From positions 28,927,501 through 28,991,500 of the forward strand of contig NC_088921.1 in the NCBI RefSeq assembly GCF_038396675.1: DNA of 64,000 nucleotides, in the 5' to 3' direction. Origin of the DNA: Hydra vulgaris. Taxonomy: Eukaryota; Cnidaria; Hydrozoa; Anthoathecata; Hydridae. How positions within the stretch are numbered: the stretch's first letter is position 1; every line of letters begins with the position of its first letter. Below are positions 9,543-49,540 of the stretch, piece by piece. The notes beneath the pieces are model-generated. The model did not search any database. It was not told the DNA's origin and saw nothing but the letters and a program-made list of their open reading frames with translations. Position numbers and translations under genes: made by a program.

Positions 9543-10051
9543 AAATTAGTTACGGGTTGTTCTCTGCTAGTAAATGAATAAATGTGCAAAAGTTTTTACT
9601 TTGACAGGCTTAGTTATAATATTGTTTTTAATTATTTTTGTTCGATTTTAAAAAATTAAAGAATAAATAAGTTTATAGCGTTATGATTAGATGACTTATT
9701 ATTGTTTAATTAATTTCAGCGGTGCGTTTTACAACAACAAATTTTCAAAATTTTATGCTGTTCTTGAATATATTGAGACTCAAGAATAACATACATCACT
9801 TAATATCATGTGGATGATTGATAGACTCAACTGGGATATTAAAAATTTAATTAAAAATTAAACTGTATTAATTATTTACTATCCACCAAAAAAAGCAGCA
9901 AACAAAGTGTTAAGTTCCAAATTAAATATGCAGTATTCCAGAAGAACACAGGCTTTTATGCAAAGTACGAATTCTGGGAACTCTAAGTAAGTATTCTTAA
10001 ATTTTTAGAGATTCTTAGTGTTCCTCTGTTAATAGGAAGTGTAAAGATCCT

Positions 10052-10363
10052 TCAGGGACTAACAATTAGACATTTACAAAATGCTGTGGTACTGGCGGAA
10101 AGGAGATCACAACCATAAAATACCGTAGTTCTTAATCCAGTTCCGGGTGAAAACTTGCAGAGTCTGGGTTTACTTTTGAGCAGGTGGTATTTTTTTCTTA
10201 TTAAAGTGGCGAAAAAACCTTTCAAAAATAAGGCATCCTCGTAAAAATCAGCAGGACATGAGTTTGTAGCCCCCATAATATAGGACCGGTTTAAACTTTC
10301 CCTCCTTGGTTTTTCAATAACAAAAACTTTTACACAAAAAAACCTGTAAAAAAAAACTAGCAA
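10052..10363 (-). other. Unrecognised open frame (about 103 codons)
   Basis: The frame contains a mixed-composition stretch (motifs such as NSCPADFYEDALF and SPGTGLRTTVFYGCD) unlike the low-complexity translation of neighbouring DNA, and the underlying DNA is less AT-rich than its surroundings. I recognise no domain, and no splice structure is compelling. It sits just outside the left boundary of the segmental duplication. It could be a fragment of a transposon or an exon; equally it could be chance. Confidence 0.2.
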
Positions 10364-11900
10364 TTAAGCCAGCTATGTCTTTAAAATAGTCTACCATTTC
10401 TTAGTCTCCAATTGGTATATGCGCCTTCTTACTACGATTTCATGTCTTTATCTGAACTCGAGACTTTATTTTTTACATAACTGTTGTACAAGATCCTGTC
10501 AAAGTTATTGGAGAATATAAGTAAATTTTTCTAGTTTATATAAATTACTTCTAACTTACTTTACAAGTCATATTAAATGTAAGCTTATGTAATTTAAGTT
10601 TTATTATAAATAGTTTGTTTTTTTATGAAGATTTATTATTAATTATAAAATTAGAAATTCCGACTTAAAAGATATTTTATTTGTAAGTTTAATTTACATT
10701 AAATGGCAAATTACATTTATATAATTTACTTTCATATGCAAGTTTTTTTTGATAAGTTTTTTATTTTAATTTGTTACTTTTATAGTAAATGTAAACTACA
10801 GTTTAAGGAACTTTTATATTATTTAATGTTATATTCAAAATTAAATAACTGTTAAATGTAAAAATAAACAGCTTTTTCATGTGACTTCTTTTACAAAACT
10901 TTTGAAAGTAAAAAAGCATACATTTATAAAGTAAAAGTCGTTTCAAAAAAAGGAATTACTAATACTGAAATGTAAATTTACATCAAGCGTTATGACTTAC
11001 ATATATAATTTACTTTTTGATAAAAATCAACTTACTCGTGTAAGTAAAAAATAGTTAAAGAGCCATACCTAGTTTAAGTTTTAAATGTTTTGAAAATAAA
11101 AACATGTTTATATATCACGTTGTTAGGTTCCTTGGAATTTGAAATGAACGTCCTATGTTTTATACACAAACCAATTTACAAAAACCTTTCTAATTTCTGA
11201 AAAAGACTTTTGATTGCAGATGAAATGTGTGTAAACAAAGGCCTCAAGCTGCAAACTTAGTCAAAATAACGTAAGAATCGTTGTTGCCATGGTTTTTATT
11301 CTACTTACTTTATTGTCATTAAATCTTATCATAAAACTTTGTTTTGAATTATTTGTCTGTGTACTTTTTTATGCTTGCTTTTAAACATTATTACTTCTTT
11401 CCTTTCTCTTGTTTTACCTAAATTCTTCCTAAAATTGACTTTTGGTACATGTTAGTAGATAATGATGCTTTCTATAGAGCTGAGTCTGCTTTCTGCAGAC
11501 AGTTTTAAATTTTGTTTTCAATATAAGCATACACATTTTAGAAAATTAGAACTTTCCTGGAAATTACGTTACTCAAATTTCAAAAAACGCTGGATCCATC
11601 CAATCAGAACTACATATTTTGTTTTCCGAAAAGTATGAAAATTAAGAATTCACTCTCATGTTTTTACTAATTTTGTGGTACAAAGTGTAATAATTTTGAA
11701 TAAAATCAATTAAAACATGTATAATTACAGTAATTACAAAAAAAGCTTTACCAATCAAAGTCAGGAAACTCTAGACAAGCAAACTTTTGACATTTTGCAA
11801 GTGGATAAAAATCAGATAAAGAATAAAGACATGAGATAAAAAATAAAGGCATTTTACCATTAAACATGTTTTGACATTAAAGCCTCAAAAGAGTAACATA

Positions 11901-14900
11901 CCCAGACAGTAAGGATATAATGGTCCCGCACTAGTCCTGTATAGGCTGCCGCGCTGGACCGGCTATGGCTGCCGACGTTGGTGAAGCTCCGTTTTGCTCT
12001 AAGGATTTTTCATGGACCAGCCGTGGCTAACCAGTGATGGCAAAACCGCGGCTAGCCAGTGCAGGATAAGAAGTGGCATAACAACGATTAGCCAGTTTTA
12101 CATTGTACCATCGTGATATTGTCTTTGTTAACTAACTGGGTCGCGCATGGGATTGTCATGGATTTTTTTCGGGGAATCCTATTTGAAGTCCCTATATTTT
12201 CCTTTATATTTAGACTTCTTAATTATTTTAAGTTATCTTTAGCAGAGTTGACTGTAATTTTTTGGTTAAAAATTTGCGTATTTTTCATTAGTTTAAGGAC
12301 AATAAAATGTATTAAACAAATGATTATTGACATTTTTAATTATTATGAATGAATTTAAAAAACATGCTTAAATTTTAAAATATATATTTACGCGACAAAT
12401 AGCAATTATTATACAAAGATTTGATTCATAGCCATTCGACAATGGTGCTTTTTTGCGATTCATGTCCAATCGTCTAGATGATTCCGTTATAAATTTCTGC
12501 TTCAATTTGTAACGTTACTTTCTTCTTCAGTGCTTGCATCCGTTTTAACTTTAATAAAATAAAAATAAACATAAGCACAACTTAATAATTAATTACATAT
12601 ATACTTATTCAACATAGTAGCAACATATATACAAAATGGTCACAACATAAACAACATGGCTATCATGTTACAATAACAATTATTTTTCATATTGACGAAA
12701 AAGTTTAATCCATTAACATCAAACCATCGTTTCATAGACTTGAGTTAAGGATCTTTTTATTATTTTGTGAACTAAAATGTAATGAAAATTGCAATGAAAA
12801 TTTACAATTACAAAAAAATGCAGGATACTTACAAATATATTTATCAAAACATGTGTTACTTGGATTATAATGGACCAAAACTCCATTAACAATTTCATGT
12901 CTTGAGATTTGACAATTTATGATTGAATATTTAATTTACTTTACAGCAGATTCTAAATAAAGTATATAACACGCTGTGAAAAAGTTAATTTATCATTTTA
13001 TTATATATAGATGACTTTAAAATCTTGCCACAATATGATTACAATTTAAAGCATCTTAAACATTTTAAAAAAGATGCACATTATCATTATACCATTTAAA
13101 TTTTTAAGATTGAACCTATAATATTTAGCATTAACATATATTTAAAATATTTAAATTGAAATCCTAATATAATTTTCTTCATTATTGATAATATATAGAT
13201 GAAATCTGTTTATCTAACTACATAACAAACTTGTCAGCAAGGGAACAGAAAAAGATTTAATTTACTACCTGTATCTGGTAGGTATAAGGTGTTAGGGAGC
13301 ACTAAAAATGTTAGGAGACTTATAAACTATATTTATAAAAAATTCATCAAATTTAAATAAACAAGACAATTTTAACATAAATTTAAATTTAAATTGCAAA
13401 TTTAAACATATACATGATTTCATGTATGTGTAAGTATATATACTAATATGTTTGCATATTTATATGTGAGTAAATAATTATACATGTATTTATGGGTGAA
13501 TATTTACAGATGTATCATTAAACAACTATTCTTCATTTAAAATCTATTGAGGCAGTTCTTGATGACAAGATCTTATGATCTTCTGTGAGTATCTGCTTAC
13601 TTATTGTAAAGTTAACAAAGTTTATAATTCTTATTGTATGTATTTTATGTACTTTATTCATTCTTTTATTGTAAAACTTGCTTTAAATAAATAGAAAGAA
13701 AAAAAAATTAATTGCCTCTCAACCTTCCTAAATATTTTTAAACACAAAAACTATTTTATAAAAGACAGTAACTCTAGTCATTAGTAATAGTAAAATTAAG
13801 GGGAAAAAATTTTTCTTTTACTTAGACACTGAAAACAGAAATAGTAATAACTTATTTGATTAAGTGTAAACTTACCAGACTTAGATGAACCATTCAACTT
13901 GAGATTTGGCATTTTGTTTTAACATTACGTTTATTGCCATAGCTTCATTAATATTCACTACTTTTATGTGGTGGCGCATTATTCATCACAAACAAACTCT
14001 AAAAACAAAACATCAATACTATTAAATCCAATAATTGAACTTATTTTCTTTGAGGTGTTTTCAAATAAAATAACAAAATAAGAAAAAGCATTATTGGCAA
14101 TTCTTTATAACCATTAATGAAAGCGTTTTAAAAGTGAAATTATAGAAAAAATGACTTTGGAAGTTTGACATTAGGGCAAATCAAATACTTCTTGAAATAA
14201 TTAGATAAAATAAATATAACATTATTACTTACATCATTATTTAGACCTCATTGAACCTATCAAGGAGTTTACATATATGGAAACATGTTATTATGATTAA
14301 ATAACTCCGACATATAGTTTAAAAAATTGATCATGTAAAAACTCACTAATAAACCTTTCTCTCCACATTAAAAATTAGAGGATCAAGAGGTGATGTGATA
14401 CAACTATACAGAATTATTATTGACGTGGATGTAATAAATTGGTATAATGCTCAAATCTTTATAGAAAATTCTATTACAAAAGACAACAATAAATGATATA
14501 TAAATAACAATACAAAAATTCAAACAGTCAACATAATTTTTTCATAAATAGAATAGCCGACAAATGAAACCATTTATAACTAAAAGTTGTGAAAGCAAAA
14601 AATCTAAATATATTTCTAACACTCTACAATAAATAAATACTAAACTGTGAAAAGCTGTTAAGGTCTGACATCTACTCTTGTAAGACTATACGCTAATAAT
14701 GTGTATCACAACTTTGTTGGTTTATTTATATTTATTTATTGTATTTAAAAGTAAACAAATTAAAAAATTTATTTAGATAAAATTATTAAATATTAATTAA
14801 ACTCCTATAAAAAAATAAAAAATAATAAAGTCCACAACGAATGTTTCAAATTATTTTGCTAAAAACACTTATATGCCCAAGTCTAGGTATATGGACTTGA

Positions 14901-15945
14901 TAACTTTTTCTATCTAATGCCTCATATGTTAATAATACTTAGGTATCCATTTTTTGACCTCAACAACTTTGTATAACACTACAATAATGATATTCTTAAG
15001 CTATATTTATAAAGATGTTATTTTTATATTATTCCTATTAAACTATAAGAATATAAAAGATAAATGTGTTAATAACACTCAAATTATGTTAAAGAAAAGT
15101 TATGATTATTACAACAAAAAGATAATAAAATAAAGCAAAATTATATCTACACAATAATATACATATATATAATATATTTCCTTTCCTATGAAACCAACAT
15201 TTCTATCAGTTTTTTTCTATTAATATCTATCATACTTCAATTGCCGTTGTTTCCATAAATTAGGTTTTAAGTTTCTCTAACTAGTTTAGCATGGCGAAAA
15301 AATTTAATATAAACATTAAACCTATTTAATGGTTAATGTTTGATGTAAATAATTACGTTTGAGATAAATAGACTTGTAAACAATGTTGATATATCATGAT
15401 TAATATGTTATTTGAAGTCTAACAATACATCCTATACGAAACTTTATTTATTTAACAAAAGAATTTACTTGCAATAATTTATTTAGAAATTATTTAAAAA
15501 ACATAAATTTCCTTTTACAGAATATTAATTTTTAAAACTTATCTAAAATTATTATGTACGCAATATAAAAAATTTCTCACCTGAAAGTATTCTTTTAAAC
15601 AATAAAGTTTTTAGATATATTTGAATGAAGAGGAAGAAACGACTTTCAAGATGGATGCGAATATATGCGCTGTAAACGCTCTTGTTTATATCATTATTAA
15701 TTTGATTTTACCACTGATAGGTCAGTATCGGCCCAGTCTCTATTGTTCTGCTACAGCAAATCTTTGTTGGACCATTGATGGTTTTTTTGCGGCTACCCAG
15801 CTCAGGCAATTTTATAAAGGCTCGGCAATGGCCCTGTTACGGCTTCCCAACACTGGCAATCCAAGAACGGAACTTTATCGGGCCTGTAATGAATTCGCTG
15901 GCATAGGCTAGCCATTATCGGACCAGTATATCCTTGCTGTCTGGG
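11901..15945. mobile_element. 4,045-bp TIR transposon with TA target duplication, apparently non-autonomous
   Basis: The ends are inverted repeats: left CCCAGACAGTAAGGATATA, right (reverse-complemented) CCCAGACAGCAAGGATATA, continuing to about 26 bp with two mismatches. Beyond that, GC-richer subterminal regions of roughly 200-300 bp at each end share short motifs such as GGCTAGCC and GGCCCGATAA-like strings, while the core is AT-rich. TA flanks both ends (11899-11900, 15946-15947). The second duplication copy has the uninterrupted site AACATAGCCATAC (near 33085-33097), which proves both the insertion and the 2-bp TA duplication. I see no transposase: the only open frames (12113-12352, 15621-15911) are short, unlike any known domain, and the second is made of the subterminal repeats. 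A TA duplication is shared by Tc1/mariner and a few other superfamilies; the TIR alone does not tell me which. Confidence 0.9.
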
Positions 15946-18583
15946 TAGCCATACAAATTACATGCCCATACTTCATACACCACAAAAAAAAAAAAAATAA
16001 TAATAAAAAATAAAATGAATAAAAATTTTGTATTATATAATAAAATACTCTTAAACAAACAAAATTGTTCTAAAACTTAAGTATGGCAAAACCATTATAT
16101 ATTATTAAATTGGTAACTACTACAAAAGTTAAAATAATACAAAAAAGTTATTGATCACATAAATTACACAAAAAACATCCTGAAACTATTTGGCAGCATT
16201 TTTGACGAGCTGGCTTATTAACAATATGCCAATGTAGAGCAAATTTAAATATTCCATATTTAGCAGCTTTTCAATTTCTAAGTTTTTTTATTTGTAACTA
16301 AAACTATTTATTTGTAACTAAAACTGGATTTTTTTCCATTTTGGATGATTTATCTTTCTAATGTAATTTCTTAATATCGCTTTCCCGTTGTGCCCCACTG
16401 TCCCGATATGCCCCGCTCTACCCTATTTCAGTAATTTTTAAAAATATAAGTACTTTATTAAGCAATATTTCATTACTTTACTTTATTTATAACTAACTTT
16501 ATTTATAACTAACTTTATTTATAATTAACTTAATTTATAATTAACTTTATTTATAATTAACTTTATTTTAACGTTATTAACGTTTATAAAAACTTAAGTA
16601 ATATATAATAAAGATTGAAAAGTTTTTCTTAATGCAGTGCTACGAAGTTAATTGACATTAAAACGAAATCAATTGTAATTTGTTTGATTCTTTTTGACCG
16701 TAACGTAGTTTATTCAAAACTTGAGCAAGATTAGAGCTATCTTTTTTTATATCCAGTTTATGAATGTATAAATTGATAAATCAGTCTTTTATAAAAAAAA
16801 ATTGATTTACTGATTGCACCTAATGATTGTGTTTTTCTATCGTATTGAAACTTAATTCAATAGTAAAAAAGTCGCAGATAAAAGTAAAAATAATATAAAT
16901 CTTTTTATATGCTGTTTACAAAAGTTACTTTTTTTAAATCAATTTTTTCTCAAAACGTAAAATGGTGGATATTGAACATATAACATTCTGACTTTATTTT
17001 TTTGTCATGGAGTTAAATTACCATAAATAAGTGTTTTTTGGCGGTTTTCATTAAAAAAAATATATCAATACATTAAAACAGGAGTACATTTATTAGACAA
17101 TAAAACTATAACATGTTTGGGTTTTATAAAAACGATTAGCTTAACGTAAAAGCAAAATAATTTAATGAACTTATGTTAGTGAAACATTTATAAAAATATA
17201 TATTTTTAAATGTTGCAGCTTTTTAGGTTTAGATAGACAGTTAACAAACAAAAAAAAGTTAGATAAGTAAGCATTATCTTTTTAGCTTTGAAACTTTAAC
17301 TCATTGCAAAAAAAACAAGCCACCGGAATCTTTAAGCTTTGTTAACGTTTACTTATTTTTAATGCGCATGTCTTTGTAAATACAAAGAAATGCGCATTAA
17401 AAAATAAGTACACGTTAACAAAACAAAAAATGGCATACTTAAAACGGTTTAATTAAGGTGATTTTTCAAATTTGTTTTTAAATAAGATAGGAATTAGTAG
17501 ACCTTAAATTCTTTTATTTTTTAAAAACTAAGGCAATGAGTACTTGAAGTTGCTTTATACCAATGATTGCTAGTACATACTTCAAAATCTTTTGCCTACC
17601 TGAACACTAAACAACGTTTAGTGCTTAGGTAGACAATAGTTTAACTTTAAAAAGTTTATTTTTAACCTCTACAGCAAGTATTCTTTACTTATTCTAAGAT
17701 ATACAAAATAAACAATCGTTGCCACTCATAGTTATAATTTACTTTTCGAACTTTTGAAATTTTTAAACTGATCTTCTTGTTCATTAAAAACGTTTTTTTC
17801 TGGTTTTTGACTATCACTTATTTCTTTATCCACGTAATAGTAAGTGTAAATATTAGCGAAAAACGGAGGACATAATTTGAACTAGTTTCTAATTTATTTG
17901 TTGTTAAAAAACTTTATTCCAAAAAAAATTGACAGAAATATTTAAGTCACCCCATAAGCCAAAAATTAAGCAAAAGTTGGTAGAATGTCTGTTGGCATGA
18001 ATCTGATGAATCTTTCACAATTAAATGAAATGGAATCAAACAAATTAAACCCCAAATTAAAAGAGTTATTCTAAAATTAATTGGTACCAATACATCAAAT
18101 AACAACAGATCTAAATACCGACATTTGTTGCACAATAATATTAGTAAGAACAAAACGTCAAAACCAAAAAATGTAAAAAAATTATCTTGTTGTTTTTTAC
18201 ATTAAACCAAACACTAAAAATGTGTAACGGAGGATTCCACTAAAAAATTTCATTGCTGCGGGATTTCGTTGTAATCAAATATTGAGTCATTAATGTTATG
18301 TAGAGCTTATTGGTTTGACAATTCTCAGAGAAAAGATTTTAATCACGAATTAATGTTACTTTTTCTATTTTTAAGCAGACACAATCAGAACTAAAACTAG
18401 TTGATATCTCTCAAAAAATAATATAACATTACGTTTTTCATAGCAGTTTTACAACTTTTCATGCTGCTAATTTTAAAAACGGAAATGTAAGTTGGTGCTA
18501 ATATATATCAAAAATGTTTTCTATATTTTTTTTCTCAAAATTCCAAAGATAATGTTACCCCTCATAATGTAAGTTTAACGTTT

Positions 18584-18790
18584 GCGGCCGTGGCGCAGTG
18601 GTTAGAACGCTTGCTATTAAGTAGGAGATCCAGGTTCGAAACGAGCTCTGGACATATTTTCGCGTTACGGTAAGGAAGAAGGCGTGAACTTCCTGGTTAA
18701 ATGCACTTCCGCGGTGCTCTGTGACAAGACCGTTAGGACTTCTTGGGGCACCTAACATAAAAAAAAAATAAAAAAAAAAAAAAAAAAAAA
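18584..18790 (+). mobile_element. tRNA-derived SINE, copy 1
   Basis: The 5' part looks like a tRNA gene: a box-A-like TGGCGCAGTGG (18591-18601) and a box-B-like GGTTCGAAAC (18633-18642) at the usual spacing, giving an RNA polymerase III promoter. A body of about 120 bp unrelated to tRNA follows, then an A-rich tail (about 18760-18790). The other copy of the segmental duplication lacks it: TTTAACATTTACGGCAT at 36722-36738 continues straight through. A second member lies at 59144-59322. The minus-strand open frame across it is meaningless. Confidence 0.9.
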
Positions 18791-20671
18791 TTAACAGCAT
18801 AAAACATACTACTGTCAACGTTACCCCATATAGAGGTAACATTGACAGTTGAGCCCCAAAAACAAAATTAATTATCTACCAATAATATTAGATAACTAAT
18901 TAAATTCTTTATCAGTTTATGGAATATAATTATTATTAGAATTGTTGCAAACCAAATTTAGTTTGTCAGCTAAAAAAAATGGATTTTCTAAAGATGTGTC
19001 GAAACCCCACTTAGTTTTACTCAAATGTAAATAAAACTTTTTTGTTGTCGAAAACAAAAATTGTAAACCTTAAAATCAATACCAACGCTACTTCTCTAAT
19101 GATCTAAAAAGAATAATTCTTTTTCTGCGTAGCAGTGTTAGACATTCGGTGGTGCGAATATCGATTTGATTAACGATGTCTAAGCACAGTGACAATGCTA
19201 ACATCAATATCATATAAAATGTTTATAGATTATTTTTTGTCAAAATTTATTAACTACCATCATAATGAGTTAAAAAACGTTTTTAGCCTTTTAAAGGACT
19301 AAATTAGATAACGTTTTAACGATTTGTTTAGGCATATTTGCTTCTTTTCTTGAATAATAACTTAAACTTCTTATTATCTCTATAGCTTCCCTTGACTGAT
19401 TACTTGAACACGAGTTTTATAAACCTGTAAGCATATAAAAAAGTGTCTCTATAAACATGTAATGCCCTTCAATTTTATTTTTCCCTAAAAAAAACTAATT
19501 ACGCAATTTGATCTTTACTTATTTGATTCGGAATTAAATTTCTGTTTTTTATTTTGAATTTTCTGAATTTAATAAAATTTGATTTTAATGACATTTTTTT
19601 TACTATCATAAAAATGAGCATTGAAATGTTGAATGTCTTCTATTTGAAAATATTTTAACTGTGTTTTCGAATTTTCCTGCACGGTACTAAACTCAAATAC
19701 AAAAAATATACCTATTGAATAATCAAAATACAGATAAATGCCAAAAGTAATTGTCGAATTACTTTTGTCTTATTTGTTTATGATAACTTTGATTTAATAA
19801 TGTTATTTGATTTACAAATTGATATAAAAAATAATAAAAAATCCTCATTGTGTCATGTTAAACGCATTATTAAAGTGGTTTTATTTGCCGTTTTCAGTAA
19901 TAAAATAAACCTATTTTCCTCAAGTGTTAGCTCTTTTTGTTAATGTAATAGTGTTAATTAACTTAAGTCAATAAATCATTTGCCGCCCGTTTTGTATTTG
20001 TAATCGCCAAAAAATAATTAGTTCATTAAACTATTTGTGATACAATAAAAGTATGAAAAATTTAATATTATATTGTTAGAAAACTACCTTTTTTATTTTG
20101 TAATAGGGAGCAACAACGATATAAAAATTCTTTTGTATCTTTGCTTTTTTTACCCAATACATTTTTTAGTTATTTTACTTAATTATTCAATAATTTTATA
20201 CAACAAGAATTTTAAGATAAAAATCGTTATACAGTAAAAAAATATAACAAAATATACAGTTATTTTATATTTTTATACAAAAATAAAAACAAAAATAAGA
20301 ACGCGGAGACTCGCTAAAGTTCTTCAGGTCTTTTCAACAAGAACCGCTCGTGAATATTAATATAAAGTTCACATGAAATATAAAATTAAGAAAAACAAGT
20401 TAATGTCGTAGTAATAGTTAACGAAAACATAAGTTTCCTAAGAATATATAGATAATATTGGTAAATAGAAATTCTCGATACTTTTATATATAAATACAAA
20501 AATATTTTAGAAAGTACTGCTTTCATAAATACTTAAGATGTGGATCAGATATACTATTATATATTACTTTAGGTAATGAGCTTCATTTTCATTTTCAAAA
20601 AAACATAAAAATATAAAAACATGTCTTTAAAAGATAAAACAATTTAGTTTTATCTTGAATGCAAGATTATT

Positions 20672-21503
20672 TCATTCATGTGAAAAGTCAAATTTTTTCA
20701 CAACTGTTTTGTTCCAAAGAAAAGCTCCTCGAAATAAAATACATGACTTTTCGAAATAACTTAGTAAATAAGGTTTCCGAATTAAATTACCATTTCGTAA
20801 AATGATTTTTTTTTTATCTTTCAAGGTATATAGATTATGAAAAGAAACAGGAGATTCGTTATTTTTACATTTGTCCATAAAACAAAGAATATTAAAAAAT
20901 ATTCAGCTGATAAATAATAAGAATTTTTATTTGAAATAATAACGGTTTGGCAGGAGCAAATCGATTTTAATAAATGAAAAGACGAGCAACATGCTTCTGC
21001 TGACAACAATAATTAAATAAATGAAATGACGAGCAACATGCTTCTGCTGCGTTAACCTGTATTTATTTAAAGCATTTCTAGCTTTGTACATAACTCCTAT
21101 ATTTCGAGAATTTTTGTTGTACAACAAATCAATGCGCTACTTCTAACTATGGTTTTCATGATTCCTAAAAAGTTAGCAGTTGGTTCTCTTTTTATTTGAA
21201 TTTTTTTCATTAAATTTGAGGCTTTAGTTGTATTACTGTAAACTAACTGTTTACGGTTGCTAAAATAAGTTTTAAGTATCATTAAAACATTTCCCTTAAA
21301 TCAATAACATTCAATTTTTTTGAATAGGATTTTGTGGTCAATGGTATCAAAAGCTTTTGATAAATCAATGAAAACACCAACGTACATTGAGATTTTTCAA
21401 AAGATTCAGCAATATTGCGGGTAAATTGGAGTATAGCGTGTTCGGTTGTATTACTTTTTTTAAATCCGTTTTGATTATGATACAGTATCCAATTTGAAGT
21501 CAA
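20672..21503 (-). pseudogene. APE-type LINE (CR1/L2-like) ORF2 fragment, in duplication copy 1
   Basis: Minus-strand frames give NGFKKSNTTEHAILQ (RT motif region, 21282-21503) and, after frameshifts, RNIGVMYKARNAL and a C-terminal block RGAFLWNK typical of the ends of APE-type LINE ORF2 proteins. The middle of the RT, including the catalytic FADD motif, is missing here: an internal deletion near 21190-21230 removes sequence that copy 2 keeps at about 39130-39450. Inactive remnant. Confidence 0.75.
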
Positions 21504-22166
21504 AAAGTAGAAACTTAATGCACATAAAATGACTTTTAAAATCTGTTGATACTATTATATTTCTTCGATTTTTGTTAGGTTTTATTTTTGTATTAAAAAA
21601 AAAACATTATTTTATACCTTGCCCCCAGCAACAGAACAACTTGAGCTAACTAGACTAGTCATTGAAAAACTAATCAAATGAAATCAATGAAAAACTGAAC
21701 AAAACTTTCAGACTTTTATTTCTTAAGCTGTAATTATTTTCAAAAGTTGCAGTTACAAAATATTGAAAATAAGTTTTAGTTTAAGCATCGGGTACAACTT
21801 GTTATTTGCCTACTGGTGTGAAGTAATAGAAAGTTATCTATTTTGCTGAACAAAATAATGAAAATTTATTTCATACGTAACTGGATTTAGTCAGTTATAA
21901 GCTTCAATTTTTACTATTTAATCCACTAAACGCTTCCCTGTATATTTTGATGTTTAAGCGTAAATAAAAGCTTAAATCTTTTGTAAAATTCCTTATCAAA
22001 GCATAAAAAAAAATAACAAAATTAAAAAGCAGTAAATTGAGATAAAATTTTAAATTGAATTTAAGGGCTAATGAAATAATAGTTGCCTGCTACGTTATAT
22101 ATTTTTTATATCCTGTCTATAATACATCTCTAAAGTGACCTATTTGGTTCAAAGACACCGAAAGCA

Positions 22167-22174
22167 TATAAATA
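22167..22174 (+). promoter_or_regulatory. TATA-like box of the poly-Asp gene, copy 1
   Basis: TATAAATA lies about 60 bp upstream of a good splice donor at 22231 and about 190 bp upstream of the start codon. The same box is at 40539-40546 in the paralogue. Transcription would then start near 22195-22205; this is inferred, not shown. Confidence 0.5.
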
Positions 22175-22230
22175 ACATGGTATTTCTACACAGCATCATC
22201 ACATTTAATTGTATTACATTCAAGATTCAG

Positions 22231-22324
22231 GTATGACATTTTAAGGTTTTCTGTTTTTTATTAACTGAAAGTTTTTATTTACTTAAGTATTCCGATGTAA
22301 TTCTTGATTATCTACTTTTTTTAG
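22231..22324 (+). other. Probable 5'UTR intron of the poly-Asp gene, copy 1
   Basis: ATTCAG|GTATGA (22230/22231) is a donor-like site, and a pyrimidine-rich tract ending TTTTTTTAG at 22324 is a strong acceptor 39 bases before the ATG. The 94-bp intron is conserved in the paralogue (40603-40696). Because Hydra is known to use spliced-leader trans-splicing, the acceptor could instead receive a leader RNA. Confidence 0.5.
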
Positions 22325-22363
22325 AGTTTATTTTATTCTGATTAGAAGTAATTCAAAGCAAAA

Positions 22364-23732
22364 ATGAAGCTAATCATTGTGGTATTAATGATGTTGGTTT
22401 GCGTGTACAGCATGAGTATTGAAAAAAATGTACCTAAAAGTCACGAATCAACAGCCAAAAAACAAGTTGCAGGTAAAATGTTTCTGCTTATTAGCAGAAA
22501 AACACTCATTTAACTGATGCTAATAAATGTTACTGTGTACACTCGCTTTATAACTAATAAGGGCTTTTCTGGGCAATGTGCAAAGTTATTAATTAGTTTA
22601 CTGTAATAAACTGGAACAGATAATATTTATTTGTGACGTACAACAGAATACACTAATAAAGTTCTTGTGACTTTTTTGTTAAAATATTTTGCATAAGAGT
22701 ACTTGACCAATGTACCCTGTCAATTATATTTTTGGAACAAACTAAAAAAAGTATAGATTAAAAATAGATATTTTGATCAGGTGTTTAAAACAATAATGCT
22801 ACATGTTATCCGTTATTATGTATTATGTCAAAACACAATTAACGTGTAAGATGGATTTCAAAAACTTTTGGTAACATATTTTGTTGCTGCGAATAAAAGT
22901 AATACATGAAAAAACAATAATGAAAAGTTGTTTTTAACTTAACCCATAAAATATTATTTCTATTTTTGTAAGCAGTATCATTTAAAAGCAAAACTTTTCA
23001 TTAACGTAACTTTATCGTTTTGTTTGCAATGTAATATAATGTTGTTAATCTTAATACCTTCAACAGCAGAAACTAAAACTGAATTGAAGAAACGTAGCGA
23101 TGGAGATGATGATGATGATGATGACGATGACGACGATGATGATGATGATGATGATGACGATGATGATGATGATGACGACGACGACGATGATGATGATGAC
23201 GATGATGATGATGACGATGATGATGATGACGATGATGATGATGACGATGATGATGAAGAAGAAGAATGCGATGAAGATGATAATGATTGCGAGAATGAAG
23301 ATAAGAAAAAGAAAAGTAAGTTTATAAAAATTTATGTTCTTATTTATTTGAGCGACTTGATTTATATTAGACCTTCACGTAATTATTATGTCAATGTTTT
23401 GAGTAACAAAATTTTTAGGCTTTTTTAGTTATTTATTCAAAGCACCTAGTTTTTATATATTTATTATTATCTAATAATTATTATTTTGAATGTCAATTAT
23501 TATCAAACCATTGTTTTTATACCTTCTAAACAATTTCAATATTTTATTTTTATCAGAAGAAAACAAAATGAAAAAAGAAAGTAAGAAGAAAATTTCAAAG
23601 AAAACAGTGTCAAAACATGCAAAGAAAAATTCTAAACGATCAATGACTGCAAAAAAGAACAGCCAAAAAAAGCAACAGAATAAAAGAGGCGCAAATCACA
23701 AAAACCTTAAAGTTAAAAGAAGCAAACTTTAA
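22364..23732 (+). CDS. Secreted poly-aspartate / lysine-rich protein, copy 1 (three coding exons)
   Basis: Coding exons 22364-22472, 23067-23315 and 23557-23732 join in phase (109+249+176 nt = 177 codons plus stop). Introns have donors CAG|GTAAAA and AAAA|GTAAGT and acceptors CAACAG and TATCAG. Residues 1-18 form a signal peptide (MKLIIVVLMMLVCVYS core). A short spacer ends with KKR at 44-46, a possible dibasic cleavage site. Residues 50-99 are 50 consecutive aspartates (23105-23254), followed by four Glu and a segment with two cysteines (104, 111). The last exon encodes a basic tail with 22 Lys and 3 Arg in 57-58 residues. The protein is therefore split into a strongly acidic and a strongly basic half. 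ATG context is AAAA-ATG, and the start is fixed by the signal peptide. I recognise no named family. Candidates, all inference: antimicrobial-peptide precursor with acidic pro-part, cation- or mineral-binding matrix protein, or a capsule or mucus component. Confidence 0.8.
23105..23254 (+). repeat. GAT/GAC tandem repeat coding 50 Asp, copy 1
   Basis: A pure run of GAY codons. The second half has a visible 15-bp higher-order period (four GAT then GAC). Two codons longer than in the paralogue. Out-of-frame open frames here (Met/Thr repeats) are artefacts. Confidence 0.95.
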
Positions 23733-23921
23733 AAAGAAAATCAACTTCTGATTTTTTAGTTATTTTGCTTTTGTAAAAATCCCTTCGTTTTTTAATATCA
23801 TGTCTATTTTTTTAGTGATTGTGTTTTTATTGTAGTTCTGCGTTATAAACGCAAGATGGAGTTTTCAATATACCCAATACTTAAATCATTCGGTAAAATC
23901 TGATTAATTTTTAAAAGCGCA

Positions 23922-23927
23922 AATAAA
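23922..23927 (+). terminator. Candidate polyadenylation signal, poly-Asp gene copy 1
   Basis: AATAAA about 190 bp after the stop codon, also present at the matching place in the paralogue (near 42289). In such AT-rich DNA this hexamer occurs often by chance. Confidence 0.3.
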
Positions 23928-25025
23928 TTCAAATGTTTGCTTACGTTAAACGTAAAATACTTAAATTCCTTGCAAACACACGAGATTAATGGGATATTAT
24001 ATTATTATAAATTCTAATTTCATTATGATCTCATCTAGATATTATAATCATAGTTAAATACATATTGGTGGTATCCTCGAAAAGGGGCCCATCAAATTGA
24101 ATGTTTTTTCAACGGCTGTCCATCCTTCTGAATATAACACTTTTTTTTCATCACCCAAGTAACTGTAGCTGTGACATCATTGACCTGATTTTTTTAACTA
24201 AAATATTGATATGCATGTTTTAATTAACAATTTAAATAGATTTGATGTAAGTGTGATGTAATCAGAGTTGTAGCAAGGATTTTGGTGCTCATGGCAAATA
24301 CATACTTCGGCGCCCTTTAACGCCAAAGTTTTTATTTTTTTGACAAAAAAAAAAAGAAGGAAACAAATACAGTAAAAATAATATGTAATTTCAAAAAATT
24401 TTGCATTGCTAATAATGTTTTTTAATGTAAACAATTAAACTTGGAACTCAGATGGTTTAAGGCTAGTCGCCGTAAACTTCGGGTTTAATTAGTTTACGTG
24501 CGGATGACGTTTTTTTTTTATCGTTCATCTTTCGCGAAAGAATTTTAAAACGCTTCAAATATAACAATGACTTTTCAACTTAAAAAAATCAGGACAAAAA
24601 AAGTTGTCTGCGCTATCGTGAATTCATAATATCATAAACATTATGAATTCATATTATTAACAATATTAACAATTTTAAATAACTCGTATTAAGGTGTCTA
24701 CCTAGAGTCGGGAATTGTTAAGGTTACTGTTAGATATTGTTAATTTCATTTTTTATTTAACTTTGGTTTAGCATCTTAGTTTCACTTATGCAAATGATTT
24801 AATGTTTTTAGCAAACATTTCTCTTAAGTTATCTAGCAGAAATAAAAAGTAATTTTTTCCTCTTTTTGATTGAGAAATATACAGCGTTCATTTTTGCCAA
24901 AATCAATCCAGCGCAAATGATTCACGCGACTAACAAAACTGAGAGTCGTGTACACTGGAATAATTTTACGTTAGGTTCAGTCTATACTAAAATATATATT
25001 TAAGTAACCAAGTTTCATAGCTTAA

Positions 25026-25127
25026 TTGGTCCATATTTAGTTAGAGGCTTTAAGTATAATTTATTTTAAAAAAATTTCTTTTATTTAAATAAATTATACT
25101 TCAAGTCTCTAACTAAATATGGACCAA
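25026..25127. repeat. Foldback (inverted repeat), ~40-bp arms
   Basis: TTGGTCCATATTTAGTTAGAG at the left (first bases from 25026) is mirrored by CTCTAACTAAATATGGACC ending at 25127, with most of TTTAAGTATAATTTATT also paired. In duplication copy 2 only the right arm is present (about 43881-43903), and the left arm is replaced by about 330 bp of unrelated sequence. Confidence 0.85.
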
Positions 25128-25195
25128 ACAGACTAATGATTATTTGTGTACTTTTTTTAATAATTAAAGTATAAGATTAGTATGAGTTTGTCTCT

Positions 25196-25379
25196 GATGT
25201 TTCTATGTGACTTTTGGACTAATTTTCATTAAACTGTGGACCGTTAAAAATTTTTTTCTTCTGATACTTGGTTTCAAAAAACAACTGTTTTTATAAGTAA
25301 TCGAGAACTATTTTCAAGTTGACAGCAAAGTCGCAACAAATGCAAAAAAAAAAAAAAAAAAAAAAAAATTAAACTTCAT
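25196..25379. repeat. Short A-rich spacer
   Basis: Contains a poly-A tract at about 25345-25369. No gene is supported. Confidence 0.5.
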
Positions 25380-30478: not shown

Positions 30479-31688
30479 TTGCATTTAAATATTAGGAGTT
30501 ATTCAAAAAGTTTTGAATTATTTAAACAATTTTTATGCGAGGTTAAGTTTAGTTTTAAAATGATTAGTCTCAGCAAGACATGGTGTACTGATGAATATAT
30601 CGAGACAAATACAAATTTTCAGCTACCAATTTATAAAGTGATTCATCGATTTAGAGGATCTGGGAAGAAAGGAGAGGGTTAGTGTGTATTTATAAGTAAT
30701 TCTTTATCATACAAGCTAAGAAAAGACTTGTGCTCAACCACTAATGATTGTGAATCACTATGTGTGGAAATAATAAATAAAGCCACAAAAAACATTATCA
30801 TCCACGTTTTATACAGACCACCTTCCGGCTCAATACAGTTCGAAAATCATATTAAAAACATTATTAAAAATATTTTAGGCAAAAATAAAAGTATTTATTT
30901 AGTAGGTGATTTTAACCTTGACCTTAACATGAGTCATTTAAATACAAATATAAATAATTTCTTTAACGTCATATATCAGAAAGGCTATATTCCACTAATT
31001 AATAAACCCACAAGAATAAATAGAGAAAGCGCAACAATTATAGATCAAATAATCACCAATAAATTCAAATCAAAAATCAAAACAGGAATATTTAAATGCG
31101 AAATTTCGGATTACTTTCCTGTAATTCTTATCTCACAAAAATGTGATAACATCGATGCACAAAAAGTTAAAAAAAATACGCGAAATATAAATGAAAAATC
31201 CATGAAAAATTTCAATACTCTTTTATCAGACTTAAATTGGGATGACCTCCCTGATATTGAACACACAGATAAGGCATACGATAAGTTAATTAAATAATTA
31301 CAACAACTTTACAATACGGCTTTTCCTGTAGTTACAAAATGTGTGAAAAAAAAATCCATAAAATCCATGGATAACGCCGGAATTATAAAGTCGTCAAAAA
31401 AAAAAAAGCAACGGTTATATAATAAGTTTCTCAAAAAAAAAAACTTTCAAGAATGAAACTAATTACTAAATATATAAACGTGTTTTTGAGATGGTTATTA
31501 AAAAGTCAAAGAAATATTACTAAACTGAGCATTTAATAATACTTAAAAATGATCTAAAAACTACTTGGAACATTATTAAGGCAGTAGTTATCAAGAAAAA
31601 AACTGATGGAAATAGTCTTCCAATAAATCTAAACATTGAAAATAAAACTATTACAAATAAATATTTAGTTGCTGAAACACTCAATCAA
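30479..31688 (+). pseudogene. APE-type LINE endonuclease and linker, truncated at the duplication boundary
   Basis: A single frame runs 30479-31297 with one in-frame TAG at 30680-30682. It shows HLNIRS, SLSKTWC (E-to-K-like change at the SETW motif), LYRPPSG, GDFNLDL, SATIIDQIITN and ISDYFPV (H replaced by Y at SDH), the endonuclease motifs of APE-type non-LTR elements. After 31297 the linker is frameshifted but recognisable up to about 31688 (TTWNIIKAVVIKKKT, VAETLNQY). There the LINE stops exactly where copy 2 of the segmental duplication begins; no RT follows on this strand. Confidence 0.8.
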
Positions 31689-33788
31689 TACAAAATCCTG
31701 TCAAAGTTATTGTAGAATATAAGTAAATTTACTTTATATAAATTACTTTTAATTTACTTTACAAGTTATATTAAATGTAAGCTTATGTAATTTTAGTTTT
31801 ATTTTATATAGTTTATTTTCAATGAAGATTTACTATTAATTTTAAAATTAAAAATTCCAACTTAAAAGATATTTTATTTGTAAATTTAATTTACATTTAA
31901 TGGCAAATTACTTTTATGTAATTTGCTTTCATATGCAAGTTTTTTTGATAAACTTTTTTTTAATTTGTTACTTTTATATGTAAATGTAAATTACAGTGTA
32001 AAGAACTTTTATATTATGTAATGTAATATTCAAAAGTAATGAACTTTTTAATGTAAAAATAAACAGCTTTTTCATGTGACTTCTCTTACAAAACATTTGA
32101 AAGTAAAAAAGCATACATTTATAAAGAAAAGTCTTTCAAAAAGATGAATTACTACTACGGAAATGTAAATTTACAAAAAGCGTTTTAATTTACTTAAGTA
32201 ATTTACTTTTTGATTAAACTTAACTTACTCGTGTAAGTAGAAAAAAGTAAAAAAGCCATCCCTAGCATAAGTTTTAAAAGTTTTGAAAATATAGAAATGT
32301 TAATATATCACGTTGTTAGGTGCCATGGAATTTGAAATGAACGTATATGTTTTATATATTACCAATTTACAAAAACCTTTGTAATTTCTAAAAATAGCTG
32401 TAAGCTTTTAGATTGCAGATGAAATGTGTGTGAAGAAACGCCCAAAGCTGCAAACTTAGTTGGGTCAACGTTAAAATAACGAATGAATCGTTGTTGCCAT
32501 GGTTGTTATTCTACTTACTTTCGGGTAAGATCGAAATTCGGAAAAAAAAAGTCATTAAATCTTCTCATAAAATTTTATTTTGAATTATTTGTCTGTGTAC
32601 TTTTTCATGCTTTCCTTTCTCTTGTTTTACCAAAGTTCTTTATAAAATTGACTTTTGGTCCATGTTAGTAAATAATGATGCTTCCTATAGAGCTGAGTCT
32701 GCTTTTGCAGACAATTTTAAATTTTGTTTGCAATATAAGCATACACAATTTAGGAAATTAGAACTTACCTGGAGTTTACGTTACTCAAATTCCAAAAAAA
32801 GCTGGATCCATCTTATCAAAACTAAATAATTTGGTTTCTGAAAAGTATGAAAATTAAGTATAAACTCTCATGTTTTTACTAATGCAGTGTTACAAAGTGT
32901 AATAACTTTGAATAAAATTATAACTTGTAAAATTACAATAATTAAAAAATAAGCTTTAACAACCAAAGTAACGAAACTCTAGACAAGCAAAATTTCGACA
33001 TTTTGCAAGTGGATAAGAAATGAGAAAAAAATAAAAGCATTTTACCATTAAACATGTTTGACATTAAAGTCTCAAAAGAGTAACATAGCCATACAAGTTA
33101 CTTGCCCATACACCCACACACTACAAAAAAAAAAAAAAAAAAAATTAACAACTAAAATAAAAAAGTGTTTGTATTATATTATAAAATACTCTTAAGGAAA
33201 AAAAATTGTTCCAAAATTTTAGTATGGCAGAACAAGTATAAATTATTAAATTGATAACTACTACTAAATTTAAGATAAAAAAAGTTATCGATCACATAAA
33301 TTACACAAAAAATATTCTGAAACTCTTTGGCAGCCTTTTTGACGAGCAGGCTTATTACAATATGCCAATATAGAGGAAATTTAAATATGCCATATTTATC
33401 AGCAGCTTTTCATATTCTAAGTTTCTTTTTACTTGTAACTAAAACTGGATTTTATCCCATTTTGGATGAATTATCTTTGTAATGAAAAATTCTTACTATC
33501 GCTGTTCTGTTATGCCCCACTGTCCCGATATGCCCCACTCTACTCATGAAGTAGACTCTACCCTACTTCAGTAATTTAGAATAATATAAATAATATATTA
33601 AGTAATATTTCATTACTAACTTTATTTATTATTAACTTTATTATTAACGTTTATAAAAACATAATATATAATACAAATTAAAAAGTTTTTACTAATGCAG
33701 GGTTGCAAAGTTAAATGACATTAAATAAAAATCAATTGTAACTTGTTAAATTCTTTTTGATCGTAACCTAGTTTATTCAAAACTTTTT

Positions 33789-34120
33789 ATGTAGCTAATT
33801 CTCTATAAAAGGTTATTTTTAATTTAAAAACAGAAAAAAAAAGTTAAGTTAACGGTTGTTGCTTTTATTTATAAACAGTAATTCTTTTTTTTTCTTTTTT
33901 GCTGCTGTCAGAGAAAATGCAAGCAAGAATCATATTAAGGCTAACGGAAGGGGAAAAATAACAAAAAGTATTTATCATTTGTTTTTTCTTTATTAATAAT
34001 AAGTCTTTTAATCAAAATAAGCCATGCAAAAGGCTTATAAAGTTAGGCTTATAAAGTGTTTATTTTAGGCGTTGTTGTTCTTACTTTATAAAATTAAATC
34101 CTTTTCATGCAGAGAGCAAG
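33789..34120. other. Copy-2-specific insertion (or copy-1 deletion), ~330 bp
   Basis: In copy 1 TTTATTCAAAACTTGAGCAAGA (first 20 bases from 16708) is continuous, whereas copy 2 has about 330 bp between TTATTCAAAACTT and GAGCAAGACA. No ORF or clear terminal repeat was seen. Confidence 0.6.
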
Positions 34121-35204
34121 ACAAGAGCTATCTTTTTTTTATATCCAATTTATGAATAAATAAATTCGTAAATCAGTCATTTATAAAAAATTGATTTACT
34201 GATCGCATAAAAAATTGATTAACAATATGCACCTAATGATTGTGTTTTTCTATCGGATTGAAACTTAATTCAATAGTAAAAAAGTCGCAGATAAAAGTAA
34301 AAATAATATAAATCTTTTTATATGCTGTTTACAAAAGTTACTTTTTTGAACCAATTTTTTCTCAAAACCTAAAATGGTGGATATCGAACATATAACATTC
34401 TGACTTTGTTTTTCAGTCATGGAGTTAAACCACCATAAATAAGTGTTTTTTGGCGGTTTTCAACTTTCAAAAAATATCAATACCTTAAAACGGGAGTACA
34501 TTTAATAGACTATAAAACTATAACATGTTTGGGTTTTATAAAGACGATCAGTTTAACGTAAAAGCAAAATAACTTGATGAACTTATGTTAGTGAAACATA
34601 TGTAAAAAAATATATTTTTAAATGTTGCAACTTTTTCGGTTTAGTTGGACAGTTAACAAAAAAAAAAAGTTAGATTAGATAGGATTATCATTTTAGCTTT
34701 AAAACATTAACTAAATGCAAAAAAAACCATTGGAATGTTTTAGCTATGTTGAAGTTTACTTTTTTTAAATGCGCATGCGTATTTCTTTGCCAATCTACAA
34801 AAACGGCATACTTAAAACGGTTTAATTATGTTGATTTTCAAACTTATTTTTAAATAAGATAGCAAATAGTAGACCTTAAATTCTTTTATTTTGTAAAAAC
34901 TATGTCTGGAGGCTATGAGTACTTGAAGTTGCCTAATACTAATGATTGCTGGTACATACTTCAAAATCTTTTGCCTACCTGAACACTAAACAACGTTTAG
35001 TGTTTAGGTAGACAATAGTTGAGTTTTAAAAAGTTTTTTTTTTTCAGCCATAACAGCATGTATTCTTTTCTTTTTCTGAGATATACAAAATAAACAATTG
35101 TTGCCACTCATAGTTATAATTCACTTTTCGAACTTTTGAAATTTTTAAACTGATTTTCTTGTTATTTAAAAACGCTATTTTTCTGGTTTGTGACTATCGG
35201 TTAT

Positions 35205-35698
35205 TTTTGAAAAAATGATTATTGACATCTATTATCCAACGCATTATTTTTTGGCAGTTTTATCCGAAATCATATTTTTCTATTATTTCCGGAACTTGTG
35301 CGATATCCCGATAATTGCAAATATTACACCATTGTTATTAAAGTCCCTTTTTACTTTAAGCACCGGAAGGATCCAAATGTCTAGACAACAGCGTCTAAGA
35401 CATCGACGTTAGGTTTACAATAAATAGTTATTTTTATTCAAATATTCTAACAAAAAAAATTAAGATAAAATTTTTGCAAAAATGTTTATATTAAAAATAA
35501 ATTTAAAGTTTCGAATGTTTCATTACGGAATTTTGTGTTTATAAACGAAGAGAAAATACATTGAATAACTAAGCCCTGAAGCTACTACAAGCAAAATTAT
35601 CAGAGTAAGATAGCACACGCTTACTTTTACATGTGTTAGATTAAATTATTTTAACAATGTTGTAGTCAGATGTTAAATGAACAAATATAACTATTTTT
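35205..35698. other. Copy-2-specific segment, ~490 bp
   Basis: Replaces about 20 bp of copy 1 (near 17826-17845). It contains an open frame 35215-35412 with no recognisable domain, so I do not call a gene. Which copy is ancestral cannot be decided from two copies. Confidence 0.55.
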
Positions 35699-36531
35699 AT
35701 CCTCATAATAATAAGTGTAAATATTAACGCCAAATGGAGGGCATAATTTGAACTAATTTCTCATTTATTTGTTGTGGAAAAACTTAAGTCCAAAAAAAAG
35801 TAAAGCCATACTACAATATGATTTTACATTTGCTTTTTATGATGTTGTTTCTAAATGCAACGCCATTAAGCTTTTTTTATGTAGCATTTTCTTTTTAAGC
35901 GCATATTTCAGTTTTGGGGTAACAGTGACAGAAATGCTTAAGTCAACGCATGGCCAAGAATCAAGCAAATAGTGGCAGAATGTCTTACATATGATGAATC
36001 TTTCACAATTAAATGAAATGGAATCAAACAAATCAAAACCCAAATTAAAAGAGTTATTCTAAAAAAAATTTGTACCATTACATTAAATAACAACAGATCT
36101 AAAAACCGACACTTGCAAACAGGTAAAATCTACACCCAATAATGTTGCACAATAATATTAGTAAGAACAAAACGTCAAAACCTAAAAATGTAAAAAAATT
36201 ATCTTGCTGTTTCTGAAATTAAATCAAACACTAAAAATTGCTGCGGGATTTCGTTGTAAACAAATATGGAGTCATTAATGTTAGGTAGAGCTTATTGGTT
36301 TGACAATTCTTAGAGAAAAGATTTTAATCATGACTTAACGTTCCTTTTAATATTTTTAAGTAGACACAATCAGAACTAAAGCTAATTGATATCTTTCAAA
36401 AAATAATATATAACATTACATTTCCGTTGTAATTTTACAACTTTTAATACTGCGAATTTTTAAAACGAAAATGTAAATTGGTGCGAATATATATTAAAAA
36501 TGATTTCTACTCGCACCAATAGAGGTATACC

Positions 36532-36925
36532 CCGTATAGAGGTAACACTGGCAGTTGAGCCGCAAAAACAAAATTAATTATCTATCAATAATATTAGATA
36601 ACTAATTTAATTCTTCATCAGTTTATGAAATATAATTATTATTAGTAAACGCATTGAATTAATGCATACTAAATTTAGTTTGTCACAGCTAAAAAGATAA
36701 TGTTACCCCTCATGATGTAAGTTTAACATTTACGGCATAAAACATACTACTGTCAACGTTGCCCCGTATAGAGGTAACATTGACGGTTGAGCCCCAAAAA
36801 CAAAATTATCTATCAATAATATTAGATAACTAATTATATTCTTCATCAGTATATGATATATAACTATTATTAGTAAACGCATTGAATTATTGCATACCAA
36901 ACTTAGTTTGTCAAAAAAATGGCTA
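36532..36925 (+). repeat. Local tandem duplication, ~232-bp period
   Basis: CCCGTATAGAGGTAACA occurs at 36532 and again at 36764, each followed by the same CAATAATATTAGATAACTAA landmark and TTTAGTTTGTC. Copy 1 of the large duplication has only one such unit (18826-18970). Confidence 0.85.
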
Positions 36926-38639
36926 AAAAAAATGCGTTTTTTTAAAGATGTGTCAAAACCACACTTCATTTTACTCAAATGTAAATAAAACTTTTTTGTT
37001 GTTGAAAACAAAAATAGTAAACCTTAAAATCAATACTAACGCTATTTTTCTAATGATTTAAAAATAATTCTTCTTCTTCTCCGTAGCAGTGTTAGACAAA
37101 TTCCATTGTGCGATTTCATATCGATTTCATTGACGCTGTCTAAGCACAGTGTCAATGCAAACATGAATATTATATAAAATGCTAATTGAATATTTTTTGT
37201 CAAAATTTTATAACTACCATTATAATGAGTTAAAAACGTTTTTAGCCTTTTAAAGGACTAAATCAGATAGCGTTTTAACGATTTGTTTGAGCATATTTGC
37301 TTCTTTTCTTGAATAATAACTTAAACTTCTTATCATCTCTATAGCTCTCCTTGACTGATTACTTGAACACGAGCTTTATAAACCTTTAAGCATTTAAAAA
37401 GTGTCTCTATAAACATGTAATGCCCTTCAATTTTATTTTTCCCTAAAAAAAACTAATTACGCAATGTGACCTTTACTTATTTGATTTGGAATTAAATTTC
37501 GGTCTTTTTTTTGACTTTTCTGAATTTAATAAAAAATTGATTTTATTGACATTTTTTTCGTATTATAAAAATGGGCATTGAAATGTAAAATGTCTTCTAT
37601 TTGAAAATATTTTAACTGTGTTTTCGAATTTTCCTGCACCGTACTAAACTTATATACAAAAAACATTCCTATTAAATAATCAAAATAAAGATATATGATA
37701 AAAGTAATTGTCGAATTACTTTTGTCTTATTTGTTTATAATAACTTTGATATGATACTGTTATTTGATTTACAAACTGGTATTTAAAATAATAAAAAATC
37801 TTATTTGTGTCAGGTTAAACGCATTATTAAAGTGGTTTTATTTGCCGTTCTCAGTAATAAAATAAACCTATTTTCCTCAAGTTTTCTCTCTTTTTGTTAA
37901 TGTAATAGCGTTAAATAACTTAAGCCAATAAATCCTTTGCCGCCCTTTTTGAATTTGCAATGGCCTAATAATTAATAGTTCATTTAAATTACTTGTGATA
38001 CAATGAAAGTATGAAAAATTTAATATTAATTTTATTGTTAGAAAACTACCTTTTTTGTTTTGTAATAGGGAGCAACAACGATATAAAAATTCTTTTGTAT
38101 CTTTGCTTTTTTTACCCAATACATTTTTTAGTTATTTTACTTAATTATTCAATAATTTTATACAACAAGAATTTTAAGATAAAAATCGTTATACAGTAAA
38201 AATGTATAACAAAATATACAGTTATTTTATATTTTTATATAAAAATAAAAACAAAAATAAGAACGTGGAGAATCGCAAAAGTTCTTCAGGTCTTATCATC
38301 GAAAACCGCTCGTGAATATTAAGTGCATTTAAGTTCGCATGAAATATAAAATTAAAAAAAAAACAAATCAATGTCGTGGTAATAATTAGCGAAAACATAA
38401 GTTTCCTAAGAATATATTGATAATATTGGTATATAGAAATTCTCGATACTTTTATATACAAATACAAAAATATTTAAAAAGTACTGCTTTCATAAACACA
38501 TAAGATGTGGATCAGATACCCTATTGTATATAACCTTAGGTAATGAGCTTCATTTTCATTTTCAGAAAAACTTAAAAATATAAAAACATGTCTTTAAAAG
38601 ATAAAACAACTTCTTTTAGTTTTATCTTGAATGAAAGAT

Positions 38640-40538: not shown

Positions 40539-40546
40539 TATAAATA
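40539..40546 (+). promoter_or_regulatory. TATA-like box of the poly-Asp gene, copy 2
   Basis: TATAAATA in a context identical to copy 1 (22167). It is followed by the conserved 5'UTR donor at 40603 and acceptor at 40696. Confidence 0.5.

Positions 40547-48593: not shown

Positions 48594-49540
<947 letters not shown>

Follow-up and report, generated by a model that had tools for sequence, protein, structure and literature searches.

Hydra antimicrobial precursors are described in PMC10945409 as combining a signal peptide, a bipartite charge and a complex cysteine pattern, and as being encoded by clustered near-identical paralogues, many with identical products. In alpha-defensins, an anionic prosegment is thought to hold the cationic peptide inactive, as outlined in PMC3308943. 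The Aspein of P. fucata, as characterized in PMC3091754, has 60.4% Asp in its main body, is punctuated by Ser-Gly and serves calcite prisms. Hydra nematocysts are reported to contain poly-gamma-glutamate, a polyanion that builds osmotic pressure (PMC10014300).

We analyzed a 64,000-nucleotide stretch of the Hydra vulgaris genome (C2:28927501-28991500; hereafter the window) containing two copies of a gene for a predicted protein with a signal-like start, a long run of aspartates and a Lys-rich tail. Like the arminin- and periculin-type precursors of Hydra, this protein has a predicted signal peptide (by hydrophobicity) and a bipartite charge (-63 / +27), and it is encoded by clustered near-identical paralogues, four within 276 kb. 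Unlike those precursors, which we compared by description only, it lacks a complex Cys pattern, having two mature Cys, and it carries an uninterrupted Asp run and a very polar, non-amphipathic tail. The preliminary description of this DNA had likened the protein to cnidarian arminin-type precursors, and the likeness is apt with respect to the signal peptide, the bipartite charge and the clustered paralogues (as described in PMC10945409). The best reading of the four-copy family would place it with Hydra's lineage-restricted secreted bipartite-charge precursors, minus the complex Cys pattern.

Other described systems share single features with the predicted protein. It resembles alpha-defensin propeptides in joining an acidic segment to a cationic one, but differs from them in having two mature Cys, no Pfam defensin match and an acidic block that far exceeds the cationic charge. 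Aspein is a secreted protein, and like it and other Asp-rich shell matrix proteins the Hydra protein is extremely Asp-rich; unlike in Aspein, the Asp run is pure (45-50 residues, in 4/4 copies), is joined to a Lys tail and occurs in an animal that, to our knowledge, has no mineral skeleton. For that reason a skeletal-like matrix role, as had been proposed, is unlikely. Granins, calsequestrin and the prostatic spermine-binding protein are lumenal or secreted and have acidic stretches that bind Ca2+ or polyamines; they share with the Hydra product an acidic stretch in a (here predicted) secreted protein, and none of them is known to have a separate Lys-rich block. The poly-gamma-glutamate of nematocysts is likewise a Hydra polyanion in a secretory organelle, but it is a synthesised polymer and not a gene-encoded chain.

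Gene structure and encoded protein

Both window copies have three phase-consistent coding exons, as first proposed. The two coding introns of copy 1 (A) are GT-AG in phase 1/1, those of copy 2 (B) are likewise GT-AG in phase 1, and the frame is open in both. The features are as follows, in window coordinates.

22167-22174, + strand: TATA-like box of copy 1, TATAAATA (consensus match only)
22195-22230, + strand: probable non-coding first exon of copy 1 (start approximate; from consensus)
22364-22472, + strand: coding exon 1 of copy 1, signal-like start and beginning of the basic spacer
23070-23315, + strand: coding exon 2 of copy 1, end of the spacer (...KKR), Asp run, acidic stretch with two Cys, beginning of the Lys tail
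23105-23254, + strand: Asp run of copy 1, 50 codons (38 GAT, 12 GAC)
23557-23732, + strand: coding exon 3 of copy 1, Lys-rich tail and stop
23922-23927, + strand: AATAAA downstream of the stop of copy 1 (consensus match only)
40539-40546, + strand: TATA-like box of copy 2 (consensus match only)
40736-40844, + strand: coding exon 1 of copy 2
41441-41680, + strand: coding exon 2 of copy 2
41476-41619, + strand: Asp run of copy 2, 48 codons (35 GAT, 13 GAC)
41922-42097, + strand: coding exon 3 of copy 2, Lys-rich tail and stop

The TATA-like box TATAAATA sits 197 bases upstream of the ATG in all four copies described below. The 5' intron of copy 1 would span 22231-22324, with the next exon starting at 22325; its borders (donor CAG/GTATGA at 22230/22231 and an AG acceptor before 22325) are also kept in 4/4 copies.

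The spliced products are 176 residues long for copy 1 and 174 for copy 2 (177 and 175 counting the stop). In copy 1, a 16-residue hydrophobic signal-like start is followed by a 29-residue basic spacer ending in KKR, then by SDG and 50 Asp, the acidic junction EEEE-C-DEDDND-C-ENED and a 62-residue Lys-rich tail. Copy 2 differs only by S29A and by 48 Asp instead of 50, and spliced translation confirms that both runs are uninterrupted. The two Cys that had been placed in the acidic junction are residues 103 and 110; these are the only Cys in the mature part, and one more lies in the signal sequence. The tail contains 29 K/R, of which 25 fall within the 58 residues of exon 3, in agreement with the earlier count of 25 basic residues in fewer than 60; four Lys come from exon 2. 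Basic motifs are found at 43-45 (KKR) and as KR starting at 145, 161 and 172.

The protein ends in SKL in 4/4 copies (window 23724-23732 and 42089-42097, and copies C and D). The ending resembles a peroxisomal targeting tripeptide; such a signal could have meaning only for a leaderless form, not for a secreted protein.

The claim of an N-terminal hydrophobic signal holds by hydrophobicity. Across the 299 ATG frames of at least 36 codons in the window, two combine a strong hydrophobic core with a basic residue at positions 2-4, and both belong to this gene (copies 1 and 2; best 11-residue mean hydrophobicity 3.61).

Genomic copies and exchange between them

The genome (911,502,276 bases, 15 contigs) encodes all 25 aligned residues of a minicollagen peptide, 24 of which are shared with the Hydra mini-collagen in PDB 1sop. 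We queried it with three probes: exon 1, to a limit of E = 10; exon 3, to E = 0.1; and the leader DNA. Where repeats or large families are concerned, the counts obtained in this way are lower bounds. Each of the three queries returns the same four loci, all within 276 kb of one contig.

C2:28949864, + strand: copy A (copy 1 of the window)
C2:28968236, + strand: copy B (copy 2 of the window)
C2:29011858, - strand: copy C
C2:28735899, - strand: copy D

The preliminary description spoke of two intact paralogues: both window copies are indeed intact, but the genome holds four. Three-exon frames are intact in 4/4 copies, with uninterrupted Asp runs of 50 (A), 48 (B), 47 (C) and 45 (D) residues, and the coding-intron splice sites are the same in all copies, except for one base after a donor in D. 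Outside the Asp run, the C protein equals the B protein. The D protein differs from that of C by M17I, V35I, an Asn to Asp change in the acidic junction and a Lys to Asn change in the tail, and has one more Glu beside the Asp run. The Lys to Asn change abolishes the KR at 145; if this site is processed, copy D would give a different tail peptide. Exon 3 is identical among A, B and C (0/176 bases) and differs at 1/176 in D. Intron 1 of D differs from that of A at 26/589 bases, with a further 56 gap columns; the coding sequences of D and A show no gaps outside the Asp/Glu run.

The two window copies lie in a pair of duplicated segments.

10487-25198, + strand: duplicated segment with copy 1 (self-BLAST; ends approximate, with gaps; partner 31689-43970)
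31689-43970, + strand: duplicated segment with copy 2 (self-BLAST; ends approximate, with gaps)
21685-24160, + strand: stretch of copy 1 that matches copy 2 and copy C despite a D-like upstream flank (approximate)
40057-42530, + strand: matching stretch of copy 2 (right edge approximate)

Within the duplicated segment, the gene and its surroundings are mostly 97-100% identical and other parts 77-91%. The left edge of the 21685-24160 stretch was taken from site patterns, and its right edge was set at the point of divergence from copy 2. The duplicated segment also recurs in part, lacking this gene, at C2:28757530-28766016 and 28770837-28773542 (window 10001-18502, ~98.8%). The region is a young array of segmental duplications.

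The upstream flank of A pairs with that of D, at 96-99.8% in each 500-base bin. B pairs with C: their flanks are 100% identical between the ATG and -4.9 kb and 96-99.6% beyond it. Cross-pairs are mostly at 87-95% (about 90%). This pairing ends 680 bases upstream of the ATG, where A's gene comes to match B and C. Sites that set A and D against B and C number 172 from -2600 to -680 relative to the ATG, although 36 of these are packed into 59 bases (-1316 to -1258) and are perhaps an alignment artefact; there are 4 from -679 through +1799, all of them beyond +232. Within the gene, the deviating copy is mostly D, and A, B and C agree with one another. Sites with the other two-versus-two patterns (AB vs CD, 2; AC vs BD, 9) all lie in the gene or downstream of it. 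In the downstream flank, B is the divergent copy, at 92-94% to the rest, and identity among A, C and D is 98-99.8%. The match of A to C continues as far as the compared stretch reaches, and the right-hand end of the A tract is visible only against B.

These patterns indicate that the copies are mosaics from exchange between copies, and gene conversion would most simply account for them. Since the A tract's right-hand end is visible only against B, the mosaic may instead come from unequal crossing-over or other non-allelic recombination. Over most of the gene, divergence between D and A is 3-4%, a value between those of the A-D flank (about 1%) and the cross-pair flank (about 10%); this suggests that exchange occurred more than once. 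Given exchange between copies, selection cannot be read from the close similarity of the window copies alone. In view of the flank-versus-gene mosaic, the two intact copies stressed in the preliminary description are not independent evidence of constraint.

Elsewhere in the window, models that are often found in mobile elements match at several places.

5357-5851: DUF5641 (Pfam)
30683-31294: endonuclease-reverse transcriptase, just below the Pfam cut-off
49094-49483: transposase-type helix-turn-helix (Pfam)
51555-52133: reverse transcriptase (Pfam)

At the left edge of the window, two adjacent open frames, 463-1446 (328 residues) and 1-459 (153 residues), have no Pfam match at E 0.01. Long AT, TA and TG dinucleotide arrays are numerous (e.g. 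window 48596-48840 and 60489-60789).

Coding evidence and selection

A run of GAT and GAC codons could in principle be a microsatellite translated by chance. In 249,888 bases around the cluster, homopolymer residue runs of at least 15 outside this gene reach at most 16 residues, at two places, both of them AT-rich trinucleotide repeats; against the 45-50 Asp found here, this disfavours chance translation. Between A and B, all six substitutions in the Asp run (6/6) are GAT/GAC changes at codon position 3 and are silent, and the run lengths differ by six bases. We regard the silent changes as supportive only, because repeat slippage can spread such changes and moves in three-base steps anyway; in a GAT repeat, three-base length changes are expected with or without selection. 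Exon 3 by itself is weak coding evidence. It is 59% A (104/176) and shows no codon-position bias (p = 0.68), and of 5000 Markov sequences with the same composition, 379 stay free of stops over 58 codons. We judge the four clustered copies to form a small gene family that is real, as predicted from the Hydra DNA.

Outside the Asp run, the 127 codons compared between A and B include one replacement and one silent difference; A and D differ by five replacement and two silent codons, and C and D by four replacement and two silent codons. The C-D comparison covers 317 replacement and 64 silent sites, which puts dN at about 1.3% and dS at about 3%. Comparison of coding sequence with introns gives 7/381 versus 32/830 differences for A-D (p = 0.08, not significant), 6/381 versus 32/829 for C-D (p = 0.03, marginal) and 2 versus 11 changes for A-B (p = 0.37, no significant difference). 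These values are suggestive of purifying selection on the protein, and are not proof of it.

Candidate functions of the predicted protein

Searches with the protein gave no Pfam match above cut-offs; the tail has sub-threshold matches to Stm1_N, Spt5_N, PRP38_assoc and DUF3450 (E 0.55 to 2.3). Of the non-repeat parts, the N-terminal one had a single PDB match (E = 1.3) and the tail had none, and there was no match in Rfam. We therefore rejected a known domain as the protein's identity, there being no significant Pfam, PDB or Rfam match. In a prokaryote genome collection, exon 3 gave 439 pattern stretches, of which 0 were confirmed. The Macin model matches nowhere in the Hydra genome, and in none of its 14 controls either; a query with the acidic junction did not recover even the four known junctions. 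In the titles and abstract openings of the openly licensed literature, no gene for a poly-Asp Hydra or cnidarian protein is named among the matches listed. The words 'aspartic', 'lysine' and 'charged' are absent from the Hydra glue paper PMC5080974. As far as these searches show, within the openly licensed literature and among the matches listed, the gene family is undescribed, as the preliminary description had held.

The computed charges are +4 for the spacer, -63 for the acidic block and +27 for the tail, giving the mature protein a net charge of -32. Self-neutralisation of the opposite-charge blocks, which had been suggested as a possibility, would thus be only partial, and with charges this unbalanced the acidic block would do more than neutralise. 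Hydrophobic residues make up 16% of the tail, and its best helical moment, 0.37, is attained in 1084 of 2000 shuffles. On these values we rejected a membrane-lytic amphipathic helix for the tail.

Our leading, tentative reading is that the gene product is a secreted Hydra precursor with a bipartite charge, in which the basic tail is packaged into secretory granules by the acidic block. The protein would enter the regulated secretory pathway, and in the granules the acidic block, with Ca2+ or other cations, would condense with the basic tail and shield it. Cleavage at the basic sites or dilution outside the cell would free the tail, which could then bind polyanionic targets such as bacterial surfaces, the glycocalyx or nucleic acid, acting as a polycation and not as a membrane-inserting helix. 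Such a precursor would act in the manner of the charge-neutralised propeptides seen in alpha-defensins and in Hydra antimicrobial precursors. The predicted protein resembles the Hydra antimicrobial precursors, which is a likeness and not a demonstration of antimicrobial identity. Intactness in 4/4 copies, the hydrophobic core, the charge split, the KKR/KR sites and the silent A-B changes in the Asp run speak for a packaged precursor; the net charge of -32, the non-amphipathic tail, the presence of only two mature Cys and the loss of KR at 145 in D speak against it.

The excess negative charge favours a different emphasis, in which the Asp block is itself the functional part of a granule-matrix or calcium-store protein. 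Such a protein, which we consider possible though rather unlikely, would hold Ca2+, protons, polyamines or other cations densely in a secretory granule or nematocyst-like compartment, with the Lys tail serving only to tether or cross-link. Its action would be granin- or calsequestrin-like. The mature net charge of -32, with 63 acidic residues in one block, fits a cation store, as does the variation of this block among the four copies, which consists of synonymous changes, changes in Asp/Glu number and one Asn to Asp change. Hydra nematocysts, moreover, already use the polyanion poly-gamma-glutamate for osmotic pressure, according to PMC10014300. However, the Lys tail is conserved no less than the rest (0-1/176 bases among the four copies), which a mere tether would not need, although exchange between copies may explain this conservation too. 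The well-kept tail and the Hydra precedent favour packaging of a precursor. It is also conceivable, though unlikely, that the protein is a secreted block polyampholyte: its poly-Asp and Lys-rich blocks would self-coacervate into a granule matrix, either unaided or with Ca2+, which could then offset the charge deficit.

Two further explanations would dispense with secretion or with function. The gene could be a remnant, or a non-functional by-product of segmental duplication, intact only because it is young and exchange keeps the copies alike. Exchange does explain the near-identity of A, B and C, the selection tests are weak and the openness of exon 3 alone is not improbable (379/5000). Yet the coding splice sites, the frame, the TATA-like box and the 5' intron borders are kept in 4/4 copies, the diverged D included, and the six A-B substitutions in the Asp run are all silent, so that we consider a remnant improbable. 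Histone chaperones and nucleolar proteins often carry poly-acid and Lys-rich blocks. This, together with the non-significant tail matches to Stm1_N, Spt5_N, PRP38_assoc and DUF3450, would suit an intracellular (nuclear or nucleolar) acidic-basic chaperone-like protein with an incidental hydrophobic start. Against it, the N-terminus is shaped like a classical signal peptide in a way unmatched by the other 297 ATG frames of the window, and a basic cleavage-like motif follows the hydrophobic start; an intracellular role seems to us improbable.

The two additional copies, the exchange mosaic and the charge and amphipathicity arithmetic are new beyond the first description of this DNA. Hydra serves as a model of how a microbiome is shaped by secreted, lineage-restricted peptides, and the four-copy family adds an uncharacterised candidate with an extreme charge-block design. 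Natural block polyampholytes are relevant to granule condensation; if the product does form a self-coacervating matrix, Hydra would have a new means, specific to it, of loading, storing and releasing cations or cationic cargo, and exchange between copies would keep the block design the same in all four genes. The flank-versus-gene mosaic offers a concrete mechanism, exchange between copies, by which clustered paralogues come to encode nearly the same protein. Whether exchange also explains the periculin and arminin clusters is directly testable.
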